From Mycolicibacterium sp. (lineage in GTDB: Bacteria > Actinomycetota > Actinomycetes > Mycobacteriales > Mycobacteriaceae), in the NCBI GenBank assembly GCA_020637165.1, contig JACJWN010000003.1, positions 1 to 64,000 of the forward strand: a stretch of DNA of 64,000 nucleotides, read 5' to 3'. The first letter of the stretch is position 1. Each line of letters begins with the position of its first letter. The notes under the pieces are model-generated. The model saw only the letters and a program-made list of their open reading frames with translations, did no database searches and was not told where the DNA came from. A program made the position numbers and the translations under genes. Below, piece after piece: positions 5,867-64,000 of this stretch.

Positions 5867-6691
5867 ATGACGCGGCGTGCCCGGGTTGATGCGGAGCTGG
5901 TCCGGCGGGGGCTGGCCCGGTCGCGGCAGCAGGCCGCTGAACTGATCGGCGCCGGTCGGGTGAGCATCGACGGAATGCCTGCGGTCAAGGCGGCGACAGC
6001 GGTCGCCGTCACCGCCCGTTTGACCGTCGAGGGTGCCGACGAGCGCACCTGGGTGTCCCGCGGGGCGCACAAGCTCATCGGAGCCCTGGACGCCTTCGGG
6101 ATCGACGTCGCCGACCGCCGCTGTCTCGACGCCGGCGCGTCGACCGGCGGGTTCACCGAAGTGCTGCTGGACCGGGGCGCGGCCGAGGTGGTTGCCGTCG
6201 ACGTCGGCTACGGGCAGCTTGCCTGGTCGCTACGTTCGGATTCCCGGGTGCGGGTCATCGAGCGCACCAACGTGCGCGAGGTGACCCCCGAGGCGATCGG
6301 GGGGCAGGTCGACCTGGTCGTTGCGGACCTCTCGTTCATTTCGCTGAGCACGGTGCTGCCCGCACTGCTGGGGTGCGCCGATCCGCGCGCCGATATCGTT
6401 CCGATGGTGAAGCCGCAGTTCGAGGTCGGCAAGGGTCAGGTGGGGACCGGGGGAGTCGTCAGCGACCCTCAGTTGCGTGCCGCAGCGGTGCTCTCCGTCG
6501 CGAATCGGGCGGCGGAACTCGGCTGGGGAACCGCCGGGGTGACGGCCAGTCCGCTGCCCGGGCCGTCCGGCAACGTCGAGTATTTCCTGTGGCTGCGGTC
6601 CGGATCAGACGGCGATTCGGTCGGACAGGCACTCGTCGGGGAAGCGCTCGCCGATGCCGTGCGCCGGGCTGTTGCGGAGGGACCCCAATGA
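5867..6691 (+). CDS. tlyA: 16S/23S rRNA 2'-O-methyltransferase TlyA
   Basis: The 274-residue protein has an N-terminal S4 RNA-binding domain (about residues 5-60, [16 protein letters not shown]) and an FtsJ-type Rossmann methyltransferase domain with the SAM loop [15 protein letters not shown]. In mycobacteria TlyA methylates the 2'-OH of C1409 in 16S and C1920 in 23S rRNA, and its loss gives capreomycin/viomycin resistance. The gene looks intact. Its stop overlaps the nadK start (ATGA). Its position in the chromosome near an rRNA operon is conserved only in mycobacteria with rrnB. Confidence 0.95.
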
Positions 6692-55876: not shown

Positions 55877-57118
55877 TCAGGCCGTGACGTGGTCGATGAC
55901 CGCGTCGAACGCATTGAGAATGAACTCATCCATATCCGGATCCGACGACACCGGTTGCGAAGACTGCTTCACGATCGCGATCCCTCGCCGGCGGTCGACG
56001 TAGACCCACTGTCCATGGACGCCGATCGCGGTGATCGCCTCACGACCGGGAGTGTGGCGAATCCACCACTGCGCCCGGTAACTCCAGTCACCACCGGCCC
56101 AGGGACCCACCGCCTCGGGTCCGCGGGAGAACTTCTCCCGGCTCCCTCCTCGCTCAAGGGTCGCGATCACGCCGGCGGGAACGATCTGCTGTCCGTCGGC
56201 GATACCGCCGCTGAGCAGCATCATGGCGAACCTGGCGAGATCACGGGGTCCGGCATTGAGCCCGCCGCCGGCTACCAGTGTGCCGCAGCGGTCCAGCAGG
56301 ACGTAGGTCTCGGCCTCGGTTCCGAGTCTGGACCACAGCGCTGTGGACAGCTTGTCCTGAAACGACGTGCCGGTCGCCCGGTTGGTGAGCCAGTTGACCA
56401 CGTCGGTCTTGGGTGTCTGGTACCGGAACACGGCCCCGTGATCACGGTCGGGATCCTTCTGCAGGGTGGCCAGGAAGTCGTAGAGACCGGCCGCGTCGTC
56501 CCCGGGCTCGGCGTCCAGCCAGCCGAGCACCCGACCGTAGCGGACGATGCTCGATGTCGGGTCGGCGTAATCCTCGCTGAAATCCATGGAATTCGTCATG
56601 TCCAGCACCTGACCGATGGTCGCTGCGGTGAATGCCGACGCGGCGGCCAGTTCGGGAACCACATCGACCACCTGGGCTTTCTCGTCGAGAAGGCCGTCAT
56701 CGACGGCCATCAACGCGATCAGTCCGGCGAAGGACTTGGTCACCGACATCATCTGATGAGGCTGCGCGGCGTGCATGCCGTTGGAGTAGTGCTCGTAGAC
56801 CAGCCGATCGGGGGTGGTCACCAGGAACGAGTCGGTGAAGGTCTCACGCAGAAAGTCGGAGAAGTCCGCGCTGCCGCCTGCAGGGCGATTCACCCGAAGG
56901 TTGCTGATGTCGGTGTCCAGGTCGACGTGCAGCGGCCGCACGGGTCCACCGTTGGGAACCGGAGCGGACGGGAAGATGGTCCGCATGTGCAGGTAGGCCC
57001 ACCGGTTGTACGGCGGCGTCATCAGCGCGTTGGAACGGTCGACCCGTTTGCCGGGCGGAGGTGGGAAGCCCTCCATCAGGCCCAGTTCGTGGGCGCTCGC
57101 GTATGGGTCGTCGGTCAT
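55877..57118 (-). CDS. serine hydrolase, beta-lactamase/NylB-like
   Basis: The 413-residue penicillin-recognising-fold enzyme has the nucleophile motif S125-V-T-K128 (HQMMSVTKSF), and the following AGLIALMAVDDGLLD and later DLARFAMMLLSGG and VHGQWVYVDRRRG segments fit the class C/6-aminohexanoate-dimer hydrolase group. There is no signal peptide, so it is probably cytoplasmic. It is not the blaC type that neighbours sigC in M. tuberculosis. ATG 57118 is 40 bp after the metallothionein-like gene; upstream Pro/Ala/Thr reading is the antisense of that gene. Confidence 0.78.
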   Translation of the reverse strand: MTDDPYASAHELGLMEGFPPPPGKRVDRSNALMTPPYNRWAYLHMRTIFPSAPVPNGGPVRPLHVDLDTDISNLRVNRPAGGSADFSDFLRETFTDSFLVTTPDRLVYEHYSNGMHAAQPHQMMSVTKSFAGLIALMAVDDGLLDEKAQVVDVVPELAAASAFTAATIGQVLDMTNSMDFSEDYADPTSSIVRYGRVLGWLDAEPGDDAAGLYDFLATLQKDPDRDHGAVFRYQTPKTDVVNWLTNRATGTSFQDKLSTALWSRLGTEAETYVLLDRCGTLVAGGGLNAGPRDLARFAMMLLSGGIADGQQIVPAGVIATLERGGSREKFSRGPEAVGPWAGGDWSYRAQWWIRHTPGREAITAIGVHGQWVYVDRRRGIAIVKQSSQPVSSDPDMDEFILNAFDAVIDHVTA

Positions 57119-57158
57119 CGCCGAATCCGGGCCGTCAGTTGACGCCGCCGGTTGTCGC

Positions 57159-57314
57159 TCAGTTGGTTCCGCAGGCGCAGTCGGGGCCGCAGGAGCACTG
57201 TGTGCAGGTGCAGTTCGGGTTGTCGCAGGCGTTGTTCTGGCCGCAACTGCAGTCTGGTCCGCAGGTGCAGGGAGAGCAGGTGCAGTTCGGGTTTTCGCAG
57301 ATGGTGGCACTCAT
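57159..57314 (-). CDS. metallothionein-like protein, duplicated Cys-rich repeat
   Basis: The 51-residue protein has 14 Cys and no His or aromatic residue. Residues 6-24 and 30-48 follow the same pattern, C-x4-C-x-C-x2-C-x-C-x3-C-x-C, with a 24-residue period (ENPNCTC... and DNPNCTC...; GPDCSCG and GPDCACG). Such density means Cu(I) or Zn(II) thiolate binding. It is not similar to M. tuberculosis MymT. An AGAAGGA RBS lies eight bases before the ATG. The gene is 41 bp after sigC and 40 bp before the hydrolase, on the same strand, so it is probably in the sigC operon. Confidence 0.88.
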   Translation of the reverse strand: MSATICENPNCTCSPCTCGPDCSCGQNNACDNPNCTCTQCSCGPDCACGTN

Positions 57315-57355
57315 GGCGGCGATCCTTCTCTTTCGGTTCCGAATTACCTCAGCCG

Positions 57356-57901
57356 TCAGCCGGCGCGGTCATCGCGTCGTGCCGCGGTGATGAGATCTTC
57401 CCTCGCCCGTGCCACCCGTGAGCGGATGGTGCCCGTCGGACACCCGCAGACCTCGGCCGCTTCGGCGTAGGACAGACCCAGTACCTGGGTGAGGACCAGA
57501 GCATCCCGCCGGTCGGACTCCAGCCCGTCGAGCAGCATCCTGACTTCGATGACGTCTTCGAACCGCGCTCCTCCCGGAGTGGCCCCGAGCAATCCCTCGA
57601 GATCCACCGAAGTGGTGGTCCGGGGGCGGGCCTGGTTGCGGCGGATCTGGTCCACGACGACGCGGCGGGCGATCGAGAGCAGCCAGGTGCGCGCCGAGGA
57701 GCGGCCGGCGAACCGGGGCAGCGCACCGATCACCCGCAGGTAGGTCTCCTGGGTGAGATCGTCGGCGCTGCCGGGATCGGCTAGGAAGGCGACGGTTCGC
57801 CACACATCGCGCTCGGTCGCCCTGATGAATTGATCGAGGGCCCCGCGGTCACCTCGACCGGCAGCCATCGCCAGCCCGGTCAGCGGATCCTCGTCGGTCA
57901 C
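57356..57901 (-). CDS. sigC: ECF RNA polymerase sigma factor SigC
   Basis: The 181-residue sigma factor strongly matches M. tuberculosis SigC: GSADDLTQETYLRVIGALPRF (region 2), SSARTWLLSIARRVV, and the region-4 helix-turn-helix LSYAEAAEVCGCPTGTIRSRVARARE. There is no anti-sigma gene adjacent, as for mycobacterial sigC. SigC has been linked to copper acquisition and to ctpB expression. Here it is divergent from ctpB. GTG 57901 was chosen over TTG 57907, with small effect on the product. Confidence 0.9.
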   Translation of the reverse strand: MTDEDPLTGLAMAAGRGDRGALDQFIRATERDVWRTVAFLADPGSADDLTQETYLRVIGALPRFAGRSSARTWLLSIARRVVVDQIRRNQARPRTTTSVDLEGLLGATPGGARFEDVIEVRMLLDGLESDRRDALVLTQVLGLSYAEAAEVCGCPTGTIRSRVARAREDLITAARRDDRAG

Positions 57902-58029
57902 GACCAAAACCTTAGGTGATCGCGCCGCAGGGCGGGGCGCGGACCCGCGATCGAGGGGTAATTTGAGACGCAGCGTCGCGGAACTTTGGGCCGGTGGCAG
58001 CCGACCAATAAGGCGACTGTGCGCTATCA

Positions 58030-58047
58030 GGCCCTACCAGTAGGGCC
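58030..58047. promoter_or_regulatory. perfect palindrome before ctpB
   Basis: The arms ggccctac / gtagggcc with a 2-bp centre end 4 bp before the ctpB ribosome-binding site (gaggagg). The short centre makes an RNA hairpin unlikely, so a dimeric protein, perhaps a metal-sensing repressor, is the better reading. The regulator is unknown. Confidence 0.6.
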
Positions 58048-58059
58048 CCGAGGAGGACG

Positions 58060-60330
58060 ATGACCACCACGACCGTCGCCAGTGGAACCGACGCCCCGCC
58101 GTTGCGCCGCGTCGAACTGGACGTGTCGGGGATGACGTGCGCGGCCTGTGCCGCCCGGGTGGAGACGAGGCTGAACAAGCTCGATCACGTCCGGGCTTCC
58201 GTCAACTACGCCACCAGGGTGGCCACTGTCGACGCGCCGGAGGCCACCTCGACGGACGATCTGTGCGAGGTGGTCCGGCGGGCCGGTTACGAGGCCGATT
58301 TGCGGGCCCCCGGCACCGAGGAGCGTCCCGACCCCGACGACGCCGCCGCACGGTCACTGCTGATCCGCCTGGGCGTGGCCGCGGTCTTCTTCGTGCCGCT
58401 GTCGCATTTGTCGGTGATGTTCGCCGTACTGCCGTCGACCCGTTTCCCGGGATGGCAGTGGTTACTCACCGCGCTGGCGCTGCCGATCGTGACCTGGGCC
58501 GCCTGGCCGTTCCACCGGGTCGCGTTGCGCAATGCCCGGCACCGGACCGCGTCGATGGAGACGCTGATCTCAGTGGGCGTCACGGCGGCGACGTTGTGGT
58601 CGCTGTTCACGATCTTCGCTGCCCATCCGCAGCGCCAGACCACCGGACTCTGGCAGGCGCTGATGAGCAGCGACGCCATCTATCTGGAGGTTGCCGCCGG
58701 GGTCACGGTGTTCGTCCTGGCCGGGCGCTACTTCGAGGCGCGGGCCAAGTCGAAGGCCGGCAGTGCGTTGCGGGCTCTGGCGGCGATGAGCGCCAAGACC
58801 GTGGCGGTGCTGCACGCCGACGGCAGCGAGATGGTCATTCCCGCCGAAGAACTCAAGGAGCAGCAGCGCTTCGTGGTTCGGCCCGGAGAGACGATCGCCG
58901 CCGACGGTTTGGTGGTCGACGGCGACGCCGCCGTCGACACGAGCGCGATGACCGGCGAGTCCAAACCCGCCCGCGTGCATCCGGGTTCCGGCGTCGTCGG
59001 GGGAACGGTGGTGCTGGACGGACGCCTGGTCGTCGAAGCGGCGGCGGTCGGGGCGGACACCCACTTCGCCGCCATGGTGCGTCTTGTCGAGGAAGCCCAG
59101 GTCCAGAAGGCCGACGCGCAGCGACTGGCCGACCGCATCTCGGGCATCTTCGTGCCCGCGGTGTTCGCCATCGCGGCGGCGACTGCCGCGGGCTGGCTGC
59201 TCGCCGGCGCCGGTGCCGACAAGGCGTTCTCCGCGGCGTTGGCGGTGCTGGTCATCGCCTGCCCCTGCGCTCTGGGTCTGGCCACACCGACGGCGATGAT
59301 GGTGGCTTCGGGCCGAGGGGCCCAACTGGGCATTTTCCTCAAGGGCTACCGCGCGCTGGAGGCCATCCGCAATGTCGACACCGTCGTCTTCGACAAGACC
59401 GGCACCCTGACGACGGGACATCTTTCGGTGACTGGGGTGACCGCCGCCGTCGGATGGCAACCCGATGATGTCCTGGCCTACGCGGCCGCCGTGGAGTCCG
59501 GCTCTGAACATGCCATCGCCACGGCGATTCTGGGGGCCACCGATCGCCGTGAACCGGTGACCGGGTTCCGCGCACTTCCGGGCAACGGCGTGACCGGGAC
59601 CGTCGGCCCGGTCGGACAAACGGTCACCGTCGAGGTCGGGCGGCCAAAATGGGTGGGGCGGGAGGGGAGCGTTCCCGATCCGGTCGATGTGGCCCGGCGC
59701 GCCGCCGAGGCCCATGGGCAGACCGCTGTTCTGGTGTCGGTTGACGGGCGGGTGTGCGGTGTCGTCGCGGTGGCCGACGCGGTCAAACCCAGCGCGGCCG
59801 AAGCGGTTGCCGCGCTTAATGAAAGGGGACTGCAAACGACCCTGCTCACCGGCGACAACGCAACGGCGGCCGCCGAGGTTGGCGCCGAGGTCGGAATCGA
59901 CGATGTGATCGCAGAGGTGTTGCCCGAGGGCAAGGTCGACGTCATCGAGCAGCTGCGGGATCAGGGTCGCGTTGTCGCCATGGTCGGCGACGGGATCAAC
60001 GACGGGCCCGCCCTGGTCTCGGCGGATCTCGGACTGGCCATCGGGCGGGGTACTGATGTGGCGATCGCGGCCGCCGATGTCATCCTGGTGCGTGATGACC
60101 TGCGTTCGGTGCCGCAGGCGCTCGATCTCGCGCGGGCGACGATGCGCACCATCCGGATGAATCTGGTCTGGGCGTTCGGCTACAACGTGGCGGCCATCCC
60201 GATCGCCGCGGCCGGGCTGCTGAACCCACTAATCGCGGGTGCTGCGATGGCCTTCTCGTCGTTCTTCGTCGTCTCCAACAGCCTGCGTCTGCGGAACTTC
60301 GGACGAGGCGGTTCGGCCCCCAACTCATGA
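58060..60330 (+). CDS. ctpB: P1B-type copper-transporting ATPase CtpB
   Basis: The 756-residue ATPase has an N-terminal heavy-metal domain with GMTCAAC (C27, C30), the actuator TGES, the TM6 metal site C401-P-C403 ([12 protein letters not shown]), DKTGTLT and [10 protein letters not shown], and the C-terminal YN...MAFSS motif of Cu(I) pumps. Similarity to M. tuberculosis CtpB extends through the whole length, including GNARHRT-type and [10 protein letters not shown] segments. CtpB is thought to move Cu(I) across the membrane, possibly to supply cuproenzymes. Divergent from sigC; followed 52 bp later by a CopZ-like gene. Confidence 0.9.
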
Positions 60331-60382: not shown

Positions 60383-60598
60383 GTGTCTCAGGAATTCTCC
60401 GTCACCGGCTTGAGCTGCCAGAGTTGCGTCAAGCACGTCACCACCGCGCTGACCGCGCTTCCGGGCGTCGACTCCGTGCGGGTCGACCTCGGCAGCGACG
60501 CGCCGTCGAAGGTCTATGTCGACGCATCCCGTCCGCTGGGGGATGATGAAGTACAGGCCGCCCTCGCGGAAGAAGGCGACTACTCGCTGGTCAGGTGA
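60383..60598 (+). CDS. heavy-metal-associated (CopZ-like) copper chaperone
   Basis: The 71-residue single HMA domain has GLSCQSC (C12, C15) and a beta-alpha-beta-beta-alpha-beta pattern. It would carry Cu(I) to CtpB or the sensor. GTG start with an aaaggg sequence upstream. It lies just after ctpB and is likely in the same operon. Confidence 0.85.
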   Translation: MSQEFSVTGLSCQSCVKHVTTALTALPGVDSVRVDLGSDAPSKVYVDASRPLGDDEVQAALAEEGDYSLVR

Positions 60599-60811: not shown

Positions 60812-62800
60812 TCAGGGCCTGTTCTTGGCCAATTCGCGCAGCATGTTGTTGTAGGCCACCATCTCGTCATCGGCGTAGCTCGATTCCGAATGCCGGTCGG
60901 AGCGCACCGCGTCCCGGCGATCCTGTCGTGCCCATTGGGTGACCAGGGCGATCACAACCACCACCAGTGGCACCTCGCTCGCCCCCCAGGCGATCGCGCC
61001 CCCGAGGTGCTGGTCCTCGTTGATGTTCGCGACCCACGGCAGGGCGAGGCTGCGGTAGAAGTTGCCCCCCACGGTGGAGGTCATGGTCATCATCGCGATG
61101 CCGAAGAAGGCGTGGAAGGGCATGACTGCGAAGAGCAGGGCGAGTCTGCCGATGTAGGGGAGTCGGCGCGGACCGGGATCGACGCCGATGATGCCCCAGT
61201 AGAAGAGGTATCCGGTGATCAGGAAGTGCACGGCCATGAACTCGTGGCCCCAGTGGTAACGGACCAGGGTGTCGAAGAACGGGGTGAAGTAGACCGCATA
61301 TAGCGAGCCGACGAACAGCACGAATGCCGTTATCGGATTCGAGAGGAAGGCCGTGATCCGGGAGTGCACGAACCGGACGATCCACTCCCGCGGACCGGGG
61401 GGCTGACCCGGGGCGGAGGCCGGTAGGACGCGCAGCGCCAGGGTGACCGGAGCGCCCAGCACCAGCAGAACGGGGGCGAACATGTTCAAGGTCATGTGCT
61501 CGACCATGTGCACGCTGAACATCGCCGACCCGTAGGAGCGGACGCCCGACCCGGTCGCGAGCAGCAGCGCCGAGCACCCGGCGACCCAGGCGACCGTGCG
61601 GCCGAGCGGCCAGTGCACATCCCGGCGGCGCAGGCGCAGCACCCCGTACACGTAAAGGCCGGCGAGTAGCACCGCTGCAACACCGAGGAAGGTGTCGAAT
61701 CGCCAGAGGGTCGACAACCGTAGCGCCGTGGGCGCACCGGGCAGCTCGTAGCCGAGAAGGACATCCCAGATGGTCGGCTTGCCGTCGAGCAGCCGGGGGG
61801 AGGTCTGGATCGTCATCGCCGACAGTGCCACCAGCGTGGCCATCGCCGCGATGGCACCGCCCGGCCCGCTCGACGTACTGCCCGCGCGCAGCGCATATGC
61901 GCTTTTCACTGTCGCGGCCAGCAGCACAGCGGCGGCCAGCAGACCGAGGATTCCGTAGTCGGATCCGATCAGGCCGCCGATACCGGCCCGCAGCAACAGC
62001 AGCAGGGTCCCGTAAACCAGTGCGGTCGCCCCGGCGGCGACCTCGACGATCAGGACGCGACGGCGTACCGCGGACTCGGGAGGAGCAGCGGCCCCCACGA
62101 TCTTGATTCCGGCCCAGATCGCGATCGCCAGGGCGAAGACGATGACCGAACTCGTCGCGTAGTCGTGATCGGGTCCCTGGCCGGCATCTCCGGAGACCGG
62201 AACCGCCACGATTCCCACGACGGCCGGAATCATCAGCGGGAGGTGCCATTCCCACCGCAGCACCAACCGCGAGGTGATCGCCAGAACGGCGGCGCAGACC
62301 GTGACGACCACCCAGGCGCGTGCGCTTTCCGATGCGCCCAGCGCATCGGGGAGCCGCCCGCTGACCAACAACCGGGCCGCCGCGACACCGGAATCCACCG
62401 CAGCCTGGACGACAACCATCGTCAGCGCCGCCACCAGCCAGAGCGGCGAGAGCCGTTCGATCACGAGGTGGGCGCGGAAGGCGGTGGGGTCGACGACCCC
62501 GCGATCGTCGGGCTGCGCGGTGATGATCACCATCACCAGTGCGCCCAGACAGGCCGAGCCGGCCAGCGCGGCCGTGAAATAGCCGACCAACTGCGCGACG
62601 ACCGTTGCCGTCGCGGGGGTCGGGACCGCGGGGGACAGGACAGTGAGCGCATAGACCGCGCCGATACCGACCGCGGCGGCGTAGCCGGCCAGCAGAAGCC
62701 GGCCCGTCGCGCGGGGTCGGGCCTGCGCTGTCCCGGGCTGTTGTTTCGGGGCCTCCGCCGGTGGGGCGGGGTCAGGATGCGTCGACGTCATTGATTCCAT
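60812..62800 (-). CDS. CtaG/CopD-type copper membrane protein (Rv0102 family)
   Basis: The 662-residue polytopic protein has an N-terminal CopD-like half (about residues 30-340) and a C-terminal caa3_CtaG domain (about 380-620) with SVHMVEHMTLNMFAP and HEFMAVHFLITGYLFYWG, whose Met/His residues probably bind copper. It matches Rv0102, which lies next to ctpB (Rv0103c) in M. tuberculosis, a conserved link. The likely role is copper delivery to cytochrome oxidase. ATG 62800 or ATG 62791. Convergent with the Cys-rich gene. Confidence 0.85.
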   Translation of the reverse strand: MESMTSTHPDPAPPAEAPKQQPGTAQARPRATGRLLLAGYAAAVGIGAVYALTVLSPAVPTPATATVVAQLVGYFTAALAGSACLGALVMVIITAQPDDRGVVDPTAFRAHLVIERLSPLWLVAALTMVVVQAAVDSGVAAARLLVSGRLPDALGASESARAWVVVTVCAAVLAITSRLVLRWEWHLPLMIPAVVGIVAVPVSGDAGQGPDHDYATSSVIVFALAIAIWAGIKIVGAAAPPESAVRRRVLIVEVAAGATALVYGTLLLLLRAGIGGLIGSDYGILGLLAAAVLLAATVKSAYALRAGSTSSGPGGAIAAMATLVALSAMTIQTSPRLLDGKPTIWDVLLGYELPGAPTALRLSTLWRFDTFLGVAAVLLAGLYVYGVLRLRRRDVHWPLGRTVAWVAGCSALLLATGSGVRSYGSAMFSVHMVEHMTLNMFAPVLLVLGAPVTLALRVLPASAPGQPPGPREWIVRFVHSRITAFLSNPITAFVLFVGSLYAVYFTPFFDTLVRYHWGHEFMAVHFLITGYLFYWGIIGVDPGPRRLPYIGRLALLFAVMPFHAFFGIAMMTMTSTVGGNFYRSLALPWVANINEDQHLGGAIAWGASEVPLVVVVIALVTQWARQDRRDAVRSDRHSESSYADDEMVAYNNMLRELAKNRP

Positions 62801-62876
62801 TCTGACTGCGTCATCGCCGAGTGTAGAACCGTCTACTGTGCCGTGCGGTACCGGGAACTTTCCCGGCCACGGCCGC

Positions 62877-62902
62877 GACCAATGCTGGTGACCAATGCCG
62901 GT
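62877..62902. repeat. tandem 13-bp repeat in divergent promoter
   Basis: Two adjacent copies of gaccaatgctggt / gaccaatgccggt differ at one base. They lie between the CtaG-like gene and the DUF5134 gene. The core gaccaat also occurs upstream of ctpB (about 58009-58015). A shared regulator or promoter element is possible. Confidence 0.4.
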
Positions 62903-62942: not shown

Positions 62943-63578
62943 ATGATTCATGACCTAGCGCTGCGCTGGCTCGTCACCGCGCTGTTCGTTTTCAGCGCCG
63001 CGGTGTGTGTTCGGGCCATATTTGCCGGCCGACACTCGGCGACGAACCTGGTCAGCCACCTTCTGCACGCTCTGATGGCGATCGCGATGGCTGTGATGGC
63101 CTGGCCTCGGGGTGCCGACCTGCCGACCCGGGCGCCGATGGTCTTCTTCGCGCTGGCCGCGCTGTGGTTCGCGGTGATCACCTTCAAAACTAGCGGACAC
63201 CGGGTGGCCAACGGCTACCACACGATCATGATGCTGGCGATGGCGTGGATGTACGCGGCCATGGGCGGCCTGCCGCTTCCGAAGGCGGCTGACCATGACA
63301 TGCCCGCGATGCCGTCGATGGACGCGGCCCCGGCGCATTCCGGGCACGCGGGGCATACCGGGCACGGCTCGCATTCCACCGGCCACGCCACCGCCGACGC
63401 CGCAGTCTGGCCGGGGGTGCTGAACTGGGCGTTCACCATCGGCTTCGCGGTGGCCGCGGTGTTCTGGCTCTACCGCTTCTTCGCCGGGCGTCCCGGCTCC
63501 GAGAACCGCGGTCTGGGCGTGCTGTGCCAGTTCGCCATGGCGACCGGAATGGCCATCATGTTCGGCGTGATGCTCTAA
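62943..63578 (+). CDS. DUF5134 membrane protein with His/Met-rich loop
   Basis: The 211-residue protein has five or six hydrophobic segments. Between the fourth and fifth it has a loop (about residues 115-155) with repeated GH, HSGHAGH and MPAMPSM motifs, typical of extracytoplasmic copper binding. Related proteins (Rv0970 type) sit in copper operons of M. tuberculosis. The ATG at 62943 follows aggagtg. Divergent from the CtaG-like gene. Confidence 0.75.
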   Translation: MIHDLALRWLVTALFVFSAAVCVRAIFAGRHSATNLVSHLLHALMAIAMAVMAWPRGADLPTRAPMVFFALAALWFAVITFKTSGHRVANGYHTIMMLAMAWMYAAMGGLPLPKAADHDMPAMPSMDAAPAHSGHAGHTGHGSHSTGHATADAAVWPGVLNWAFTIGFAVAAVFWLYRFFAGRPGSENRGLGVLCQFAMATGMAIMFGVML

Positions 63579-63581
63579 GGC

Positions 63582-64000
63582 TCAGGCAGCCGAGCCGTCG
63601 CTGGGCCGCAGGTGTCCGCGCCGGCGCCCGCGGGTAGCGTTCTGCGGCAGCACGATCTCGCCGGGCTCGCCGAGGGCGCTCTGATCCGGATGGCTCCCCC
63701 CGGGGCGGTGCCACCGCCACACCAGCCATCCGAGTACCGCCGCGGCGACCACCGGCACATGGGTCAGGGCGCGGTCCACGGTGACCCGCCCGGCAACGGC
63801 GTCGCCGACCACATAGACCGACAGGACCGCGACGAAGGCGACGAGCACGGTCGTCAGCCCGGCTGCGAAAACGGGCCGAAGCGCCGCGGCAAGCATCGCT
63901 ACTCCCAAGGCCGCCGACCACGCGGTCGACTCGTTGAGGACATGACCGCCCATCGCCGCGTGCGGAACTCCCAGGTGTGCTCCCAGCCCCTGCGCCGTCG
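63582..64000 (-). CDS. membrane protein, 5' end outside window
   Basis: The visible 139 residues have three hydrophobic segments (SAALGVAMLAAALRPVF, LTTVLVAFVAVLSVYVVG and VPVVAAAVLGWLVW) and a polar C-terminal tail. The frame is open to the window edge and the residues before the first ATG (HLGVPHAAMGGHVLNEST) look genuine, so the gene starts beyond 64000. It converges on the DUF5134 gene with a 3-bp gap. Probably part of the metal region; no function assigned. Confidence 0.6.
   Translation of the reverse strand, partial: TAQGLGAHLGVPHAAMGGHVLNESTAWSAALGVAMLAAALRPVFAAGLTTVLVAFVAVLSVYVVGDAVAGRVTVDRALTHVPVVAAAVLGWLVWRWHRPGGSHPDQSALGEPGEIVLPQNATRGRRRGHLRPSDGSAA

Follow-up and report, generated by a model that had tools for sequence, protein, structure and literature searches.

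The window analysed here, a 64,000-nucleotide stretch of a Mycolicibacterium genome, encodes a tandem cysteine-rich protein within a cluster of copper genes. We propose, with a probability of about 0.7, that this is a small cytosolic Cu(I)-binding metallothionein that buffers or stores Cu(I) beside the copper machinery, its two modules doubling the capacity. The protein frame is conserved, the family to which it belongs is modular and linked to the copper cluster, and four relatives carry a RicR-type operator pattern. By 2020, as an account of that year puts it (PMC7387436), just two bacterial metallothioneins, MymT among them, had been investigated for their biological function. If our reading is true, a second, modular mycobacterial metallothionein family, without detectable homology to MymT and frequently located in a copper cluster with a linked sigma factor, would add a buffer to copper handling.

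A tandem cysteine-rich protein in a copper cluster

The open reading frame at 57159-57314 of the minus strand (ATG to TGA) translates to MSATICENPNCTCSPCTCGPDCSCGQNNACDNPNCTCTQCSCGPDCACGTN. The protein has 51 residues, 14 cysteines, of which 12 fall in six C-x-C pairs, and no histidine; it is small and cysteine-rich with its cysteines in C-x-C clusters, as bacterial metallothioneins are. Two modules, starting at C6 and C30 and thus offset by 24 residues, have the identical spacing C-x4-C-x-C-x2-C-x-C-x3-C-x-C. The initial annotation had described a 51-residue protein with 14 cysteines and two repeats 24 residues apart, preceded by its own ribosome-binding site and separated by about 40 bp from a sigma-factor gene and a hydrolase gene. 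The translation gives exactly that protein, AGAAGGA stands ahead of the ATG, and the gene is separated by 41 nt from the sigma-factor gene and by 40 nt from the hydrolase gene, all on one strand. The order of the cluster is hydrolase, metallothionein and SigC-like sigma factor, then copper ATPase, HMA, CtaG, DUF5134 and zf-HC2, with the following features:

55877..57118, minus strand: beta-lactamase-family hydrolase gene, 40 nt 3' of the tandem gene (PF00144)
57159..57314, minus strand: tandem metallothionein gene, 51 aa, 14 Cys (translation, frame constraint, relatives)
57171..57227, minus strand: module 2, residues 30-48, spacing as in module 1 (sequence, alignments A1 and A2)
57243..57299, minus strand: module 1, residues 6-24, C-x4-C-x-C-x2-C-x-C-x3-C-x-C (sequence, alignments A1 and A2)
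57323..57329, minus strand: Shine-Dalgarno-like AGAAGGA upstream of the tandem-gene ATG (sequence; a similar AAAGGA in L054)
57356..57901, minus strand: SigC-like ECF sigma factor gene, start GTG at 57901, alternatively TTG at 57907 (NCBIfam NF007231)
57909..57914, minus strand: TAAGGT, candidate leaderless-type -10, 7 nt before the sigma-factor GTG (sequence)
57980..58006, plus strand: ECF-type promoter GGAACT-N16-CGACC upstream of the copper ATPase (conserved motif)
58060..60330, plus strand: copper-type P-type ATPase, CtpA/B-like (Pfam; TIGR01511, 508.7 bits, cut-off 397)
60383..60598, plus strand: HMA (CopZ-like) metallochaperone (PF00403)
60812..62791, minus strand: Caa3_CtaG membrane protein (PF09678)
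62854..62880, plus strand: second copy of the ECF-type promoter, ahead of the DUF5134 gene
62943..63578, plus strand: DUF5134 gene of the same cluster (PF17197)
63582..64000, minus strand: zf-HC2 anti-sigma-like gene, continuing past the window end (L248:3583-4305)

The window contains the seven-cysteine module twice, whereas 200 order-1 resamplings of the window never yield it, and the frame is under constraint, which rules out a chance ORF. Across 14 distinct tandem genes, counting all codons, the mean pS is 0.55 and the mean pN 0.18, with pN below pS in 91 of 91 pairs. Because these genes were chosen by their cysteine pattern, their fixed cysteines are partly an artefact of selection, and the fair figure is the one that excludes the cysteine codons: pN 0.31 and pS 0.49, with pN below pS in 83 of 91 pairs. 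Fifty single-module sequences treated in the same way give pN 0.33 and pS 0.52 (989 of 1225 pairs). In the antisense frame of the 14 tandem genes pN (0.285) lies above pS (0.20), and coding on the opposite strand is thereby ruled out. TGC and TGT alternate at 12 of the 14 cysteine columns of the tandem set, and in the alignments the non-cysteine residues N, P, T and G and the module spacing are also kept across the family. Conservation of the frame in related loci had been named at the outset as a check, and it was borne out both by the relatives found there and by pN falling below pS outside the cysteine codons. We consider the tandem gene very likely to be real and to be maintained as a protein.

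Distribution of the modular family

Neither Pfam nor NCBIfam returned a match to the window protein at E up to 1, and at that threshold Pfam gave none for the single-module and three-module proteins or for one MymT relative either. Among solved structures there were just two weak and unconvincing matches (E 0.59 and 6.3). A search with the module alignment A1 matched 49 of 297 genomes of the genus, 11 of these 49 with two adjacent modules, and 3 of 396 genomes of the phylum, all three from the window's own family; on the loci fetched for two of the 49 (G044 and G121) and for one of the three (G234), the module spacing is absent. A single-module query of the family genomes (E 0.01) matched 20 of 201, comprising 14 with the module pattern, 4 without it and 2 whose loci were not fetched (G381 and G231). 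The alignment search supersedes an earlier search of the genus (69 of 198 at E 0.1), in which many matches were weak, and loci without the module pattern were dropped (L085, L086, L088, L089, L091, L093 and L193).

One locus (L212, match at 6001-6156) encodes a three-module protein, with no adjacent sigma-factor gene on that locus, and another (L223) has lost one cysteine from the first module. The single module may be the ancestral form, and proteins of one, two and three modules would offer a natural series for how module number sets metal capacity. Gene finders may miss many copies, which are about 35 codons long and leaderless-looking. No paper naming this family appeared among the matches listed in literature searches that covered only a minority of subscription papers. 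We consider the family genuine, and it is described nowhere in the databases and literature that we searched.

Relation to MymT and other cysteine-rich proteins

MymT is about 50 aa long, comes from the same genus and has seven cysteines, and its clusters (C-x4-C-x-C / C-x-C / C-x-C-G) follow the order of one module in alignments A1 and A3. In MymT, however, the spacers between clusters are 7 and 8 residues long, compared with 2 and 3 in the module, and the new family has one, two or three modules. Profile comparison with hhalign of A1 (24 modules) and A3 (eight MymT relatives) detected no homology (probability 0.4%, E 0.15). The earlier statement that the protein does not resemble MymT is therefore right as regards profile homology, but the order of the cysteine clusters is the same, with longer spacers in MymT. 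MymT relatives are present in 68 of 148 genomes of the genus, and the window genome has no MymT match at E 0.001. Both mymT and four genes of the family carry the operator pattern TACC-N7-GGTA (below). The window protein may work like MymT. According to PMC7924339, MymT can take up as many as six Cu(I); purely by analogy, the capacity of the tandem protein might be roughly double that number.

The SmtA/BmtA-type metallothioneins, which we take to be those of the Pfam family Metallothio_Pro, are likewise small and cysteine-rich, but the window protein has no Pfam match (E up to 1), no histidine and a modular repeat. The string C-x-C-x2-C-x-C of the module occurs in SmtA as well. The fungal copper thioneins of the Neurospora type have short, C-x-C-rich units of seven cysteines, as the module does; their different spacing and kingdom set them apart.

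The family is linked to copper genes

The linkage of the metallothionein family to the copper cluster is strong. Among the 11 tandem genomes, the tandem gene lies directly 3' of the sigma-factor gene in five (G000, G182, G032, G778 and G854) and is separated from it by one PepSY_TM gene in three (G003, G776 and G834); in the remaining three (G106, G111 and G126) the two genes are on separate contigs. The hydrolase gene pointed out as a flank in the initial annotation is present in the window, but it is not a conserved partner, adjoining the tandem gene in just two (G000 and G182) of the eight sigma-linked tandem genomes. In 46 of the 49 genus genomes the neighbourhoods examined reached 12.5 kb or more where contig ends permitted, the others being covered by 3-kb loci only (G092 and G190) or by a 3-kb locus and coordinates (G177).

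A scan of records with titles gave 22 loci, all metagenome-assembled, nine of them titled Mycobacterium, Mycolicibacterium or Mycobacteriaceae. Five distant look-alikes (L221 and L224-L227) were excluded from the linkage count, leaving 17 loci that come partly from the same genomes as the genus set. Eleven of these are linked to a sigma-factor gene, either directly behind it (L207, L211, L217, L218, L219, L220 and L223) or behind a PepSY_TM gene (L208, L209, L215 and L216), and six show no linkage on their contigs (L206, L210, L212, L213, L214 and L222).

The single-module genes have a placement of their own. In 9 of the 38 non-tandem genomes the ATPase gene lies on one side of it and the CtaG gene on the other, and the locus also carries the sigma-factor gene. 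The sigma factor, the ATPase and a single module lie within about 4 kb in G177, and in G049 the gene is beside CtaG and DUF5134 genes, with the sigma factor on another contig. Elsewhere the neighbours are NicO, DUF1775 and CopC genes (G149 and G157) or, for one copy in G063, an HMA-like gene. In total 26 of the 49 genomes have a copper link, namely 8 sigma-linked tandem genomes, 11 with a single module in the cluster and 7 others (CopC/DUF1775/NicO in two, HMA-like in one and the operator in four); being related to each other, these genomes are not independent cases. The initial reading of a metallothionein-like gene at a copper-linked locus finds support: the gene is conserved, the linkage recurs, and neither Pfam nor NCBIfam has a matching family.

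Two groups of SigC-like sigma factors

The window sigma factor scores 235.5 bits on the NCBIfam SigC model NF007231, a narrow pass of the cut-off of 219; L232, the nearest scored relative of M. tuberculosis SigC, reaches 370 bits on the same model. In a 60-row tree, which does not include L191 (the second factor of G143), the window factor lies across a fork from M. tuberculosis SigC, with support of 93/80, not a starred branch. Its region 2 is 60% identical to that of M. tuberculosis SigC, compared with 81-87% for the ten best rows and up to 73% for the rest of the window's group. G057 has one sigma factor on each side of the fork; G024 and G161 also straddle it, G161 via a long branch. The SigC model accepts the tested members of both sides. 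The genus has two SigC-like groups, and a few genomes have both. The name sigC given at first is thus upheld by the NCBIfam cut-off, but not by the tree, where the window factor is not grouped with M. tuberculosis SigC.

According to PMC7924339, SigC acts against copper starvation in M. tuberculosis, driving the expression of ctpB and of the nrp operon. The same source describes sigC there as monocistronic, with no anti-SigC identified at the time; a putative anti-SigC has been named rscA (PMC6917791), and the M. avium complex has a fusion of sigC with Rv0093c, the latter bearing an anti-sigma signature (PMC7563442). Tblastn matches to the zf-HC2 gene of the window, several of them partial, immediately precede the sigma gene in 8 of the 10 fetched loci of M. 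tuberculosis type (not L255 and L256) and also in L257, the loci with matches being L192, L249-L254, L257 and L258. This position ahead of the sigma gene fits the putative anti-SigC as presented in PMC6917791.

Promoters and the question of SigC control

Of 44 distinct stretches between the sigma and ATPase genes, 43 have an ECF-type promoter, GGAAC[CT]-N16-CGAC, ahead of the ATPase, and no other spacer between 12 and 20 was seen. The fetched loci, many of which are related, total 942 kb and contain the motif GGAAC[CT]-N16-CGAC[CT] 92 times, compared with 3.2 times in resampled sequence, and this type of promoter is also found ahead of DUF5134, PepSY_TM, HMA, CopC and DUF1775 genes. It likely marks a copper-related regulon of the SigC-like factor.

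In the fetched loci we did not identify an ECF-type promoter directly before a metallothionein gene, neither the window gene nor the single-module genes. GGAACC is present at the window gene, but a -10 element 16 nt further on would fall at the start codon, and GGAACC is missing in G182, so this candidate was rejected. In six clusters (L066, L067, L070, L161, L162 and L174) such a promoter lies 61-122 bp from the single-module gene and points away from it; the one in L070 faces a 162-aa ORF without a Pfam match. A scan of 57050-58100 for sigma-70 promoters and terminators found nothing. The sigma gene is preceded by TANNNT-N5-10-RTG in 44 of 44 distinct sigma-ATPase stretches, with 1.9 expected from shuffles. 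Given this -10 before the sigma gene and no ECF promoter at the window gene, co-transcription of the two is the simplest reading, and the window gene is probably transcribed with the SigC-like gene from the latter's own housekeeping-type promoter. For the window gene the case for SigC control, as first suggested, is weak: no ECF-type promoter lies directly ahead of it. Such control is predicted only for four relatives (L059/L216, L157/L215, L159/L208 and L209), where a PepSY_TM gene preceded by an ECF promoter comes first and the metallothionein gene follows it.

A different operator is found in part of the family. The 15-bp palindrome TACC-N7-GGTA lies at the promoter of 4 of 60 family genes, not including the window gene, and of 12 of 12 mymT controls, with a background of 0.008 per 210 bp. 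The four are single-module genes (L062, L171, L177 and L178; genomes G098, G850, G861 and G807), and since their upstream sequences are near-identical they may represent one event. The copper regulator of mymT is RicR (PMC4801387).

Proposed function and alternatives

We propose that each seven-cysteine module wraps one Cu(I)-thiolate cluster and that the tandem gene would thereby double the capacity of a single module. The protein would buffer or store Cu(I) next to an HMA chaperone, a CtpA/B-like ATPase and a CtaG protein that move copper to the membrane, and in the window genome it would be made together with the SigC-like factor, from the housekeeping-type promoter of the sigma gene. Several points weigh against the proposal: M. 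tuberculosis SigC answers copper starvation (PMC7924339), a setting in which a detoxifying metallothionein would be odd, 23 of the 49 genomes have no recognised copper link, and profile comparison detected no homology to MymT.

A version compatible with this proposal, which we regard as possible but tentative, ties the protein to copper starvation: as a store or relay it would hold scarce Cu(I) destined for cytochrome oxidase through CtpA/B and CtaG. The role of M. tuberculosis SigC, the conserved ECF promoter of the cluster and the four genes behind PepSY_TM argue for it. The missing ECF promoter directly before the window gene and the single-module genes speaks against it, as does the separation of the window sigma factor from M. 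tuberculosis SigC; the RicR-type operator in four relatives suggests a response to excess instead. More speculatively still, copper metallothioneins of one, two or three units may have been drawn into a SigC-type acquisition cluster, where the tandem form would be a Cu(I) store feeding CtpA/B and CtaG under limitation and not a detoxifier.

A cysteine-rich peptide might just as well bind Zn(II) or Cd(II), and SmtA-type metallothioneins handle zinc and cadmium (PMC7387436). The protein might serve zinc or cadmium, or take part in general thiol and oxidant buffering, with no more than an incidental position among the copper genes. This would suit the 23 of 49 genus genomes in which neighbourhoods and operator pattern reveal no recognised copper link, and also the genus g30, where the module gene adjoins a mycothione reductase gene in 11 of 11 fetched loci, as it does on a Tsukamurella plasmid. 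We nevertheless consider it unlikely, because the two placements in the sigma/Cu-ATPase cluster, the CopC neighbours and the RicR-type operators point to copper, and the family is most likely for Cu(I).

The metallothionein reading also has to be weighed against the polycysteine leaderless short ORFs of mycobacteria (PMC4633059, PMC9094748), which are likewise short, cysteine-rich and often leaderless. A cysteine-responsive attenuator of this kind would act in cis on a downstream gene and not as a protein. A leaderless-type -10, TANNNT 5-11 nt before the start, accompanies 42 of the 49 single-module genes, compared with 3 of the 11 tandem genes and 90 of the 574 control starts, and the window gene has a same-strand gene 40 nt downstream. 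We find this reading very improbable. By the calls of a simple custom caller (used for neighbours and starts, and able to err, most of all on the antisense strand), 41 of 60 loci have a convergent 3' neighbour, 16, the window gene included, have one on the same strand, and 3 have none within 500 nt, so that for the majority of copies no gene follows in line that could be attenuated. The module spacing and the residues N, P, T and G are conserved, and the 24 aligned modules have no adjacent cysteine codons.

Occurrences outside the genus

We set aside the reading of the family as mobile cargo: a phage collection gave no match, and a plasmid collection gave no record for the tandem protein and one for the single module, the Tsukamurella plasmid. 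No gene is annotated at the module there, the gene table of the collection being incomplete. In g30 and on this plasmid (L074-L084 and L126) the single-module gene sits between the mycothione reductase gene and an alpha/beta hydrolase gene.

The distant look-alikes are of two kinds. Records titled Oscillospiraceae, Tenericutes and Ferruginibacter (L224, L226 and L227) contain similar cysteine repeats, which may reflect convergence, transfer or misbinning. Two Acidimicrobiales ORFs (L221:5444-5482 and L225:1741-1779) have the cysteine motif ahead of a tail that appears to resemble a regulator of the BlaI/MecI type.
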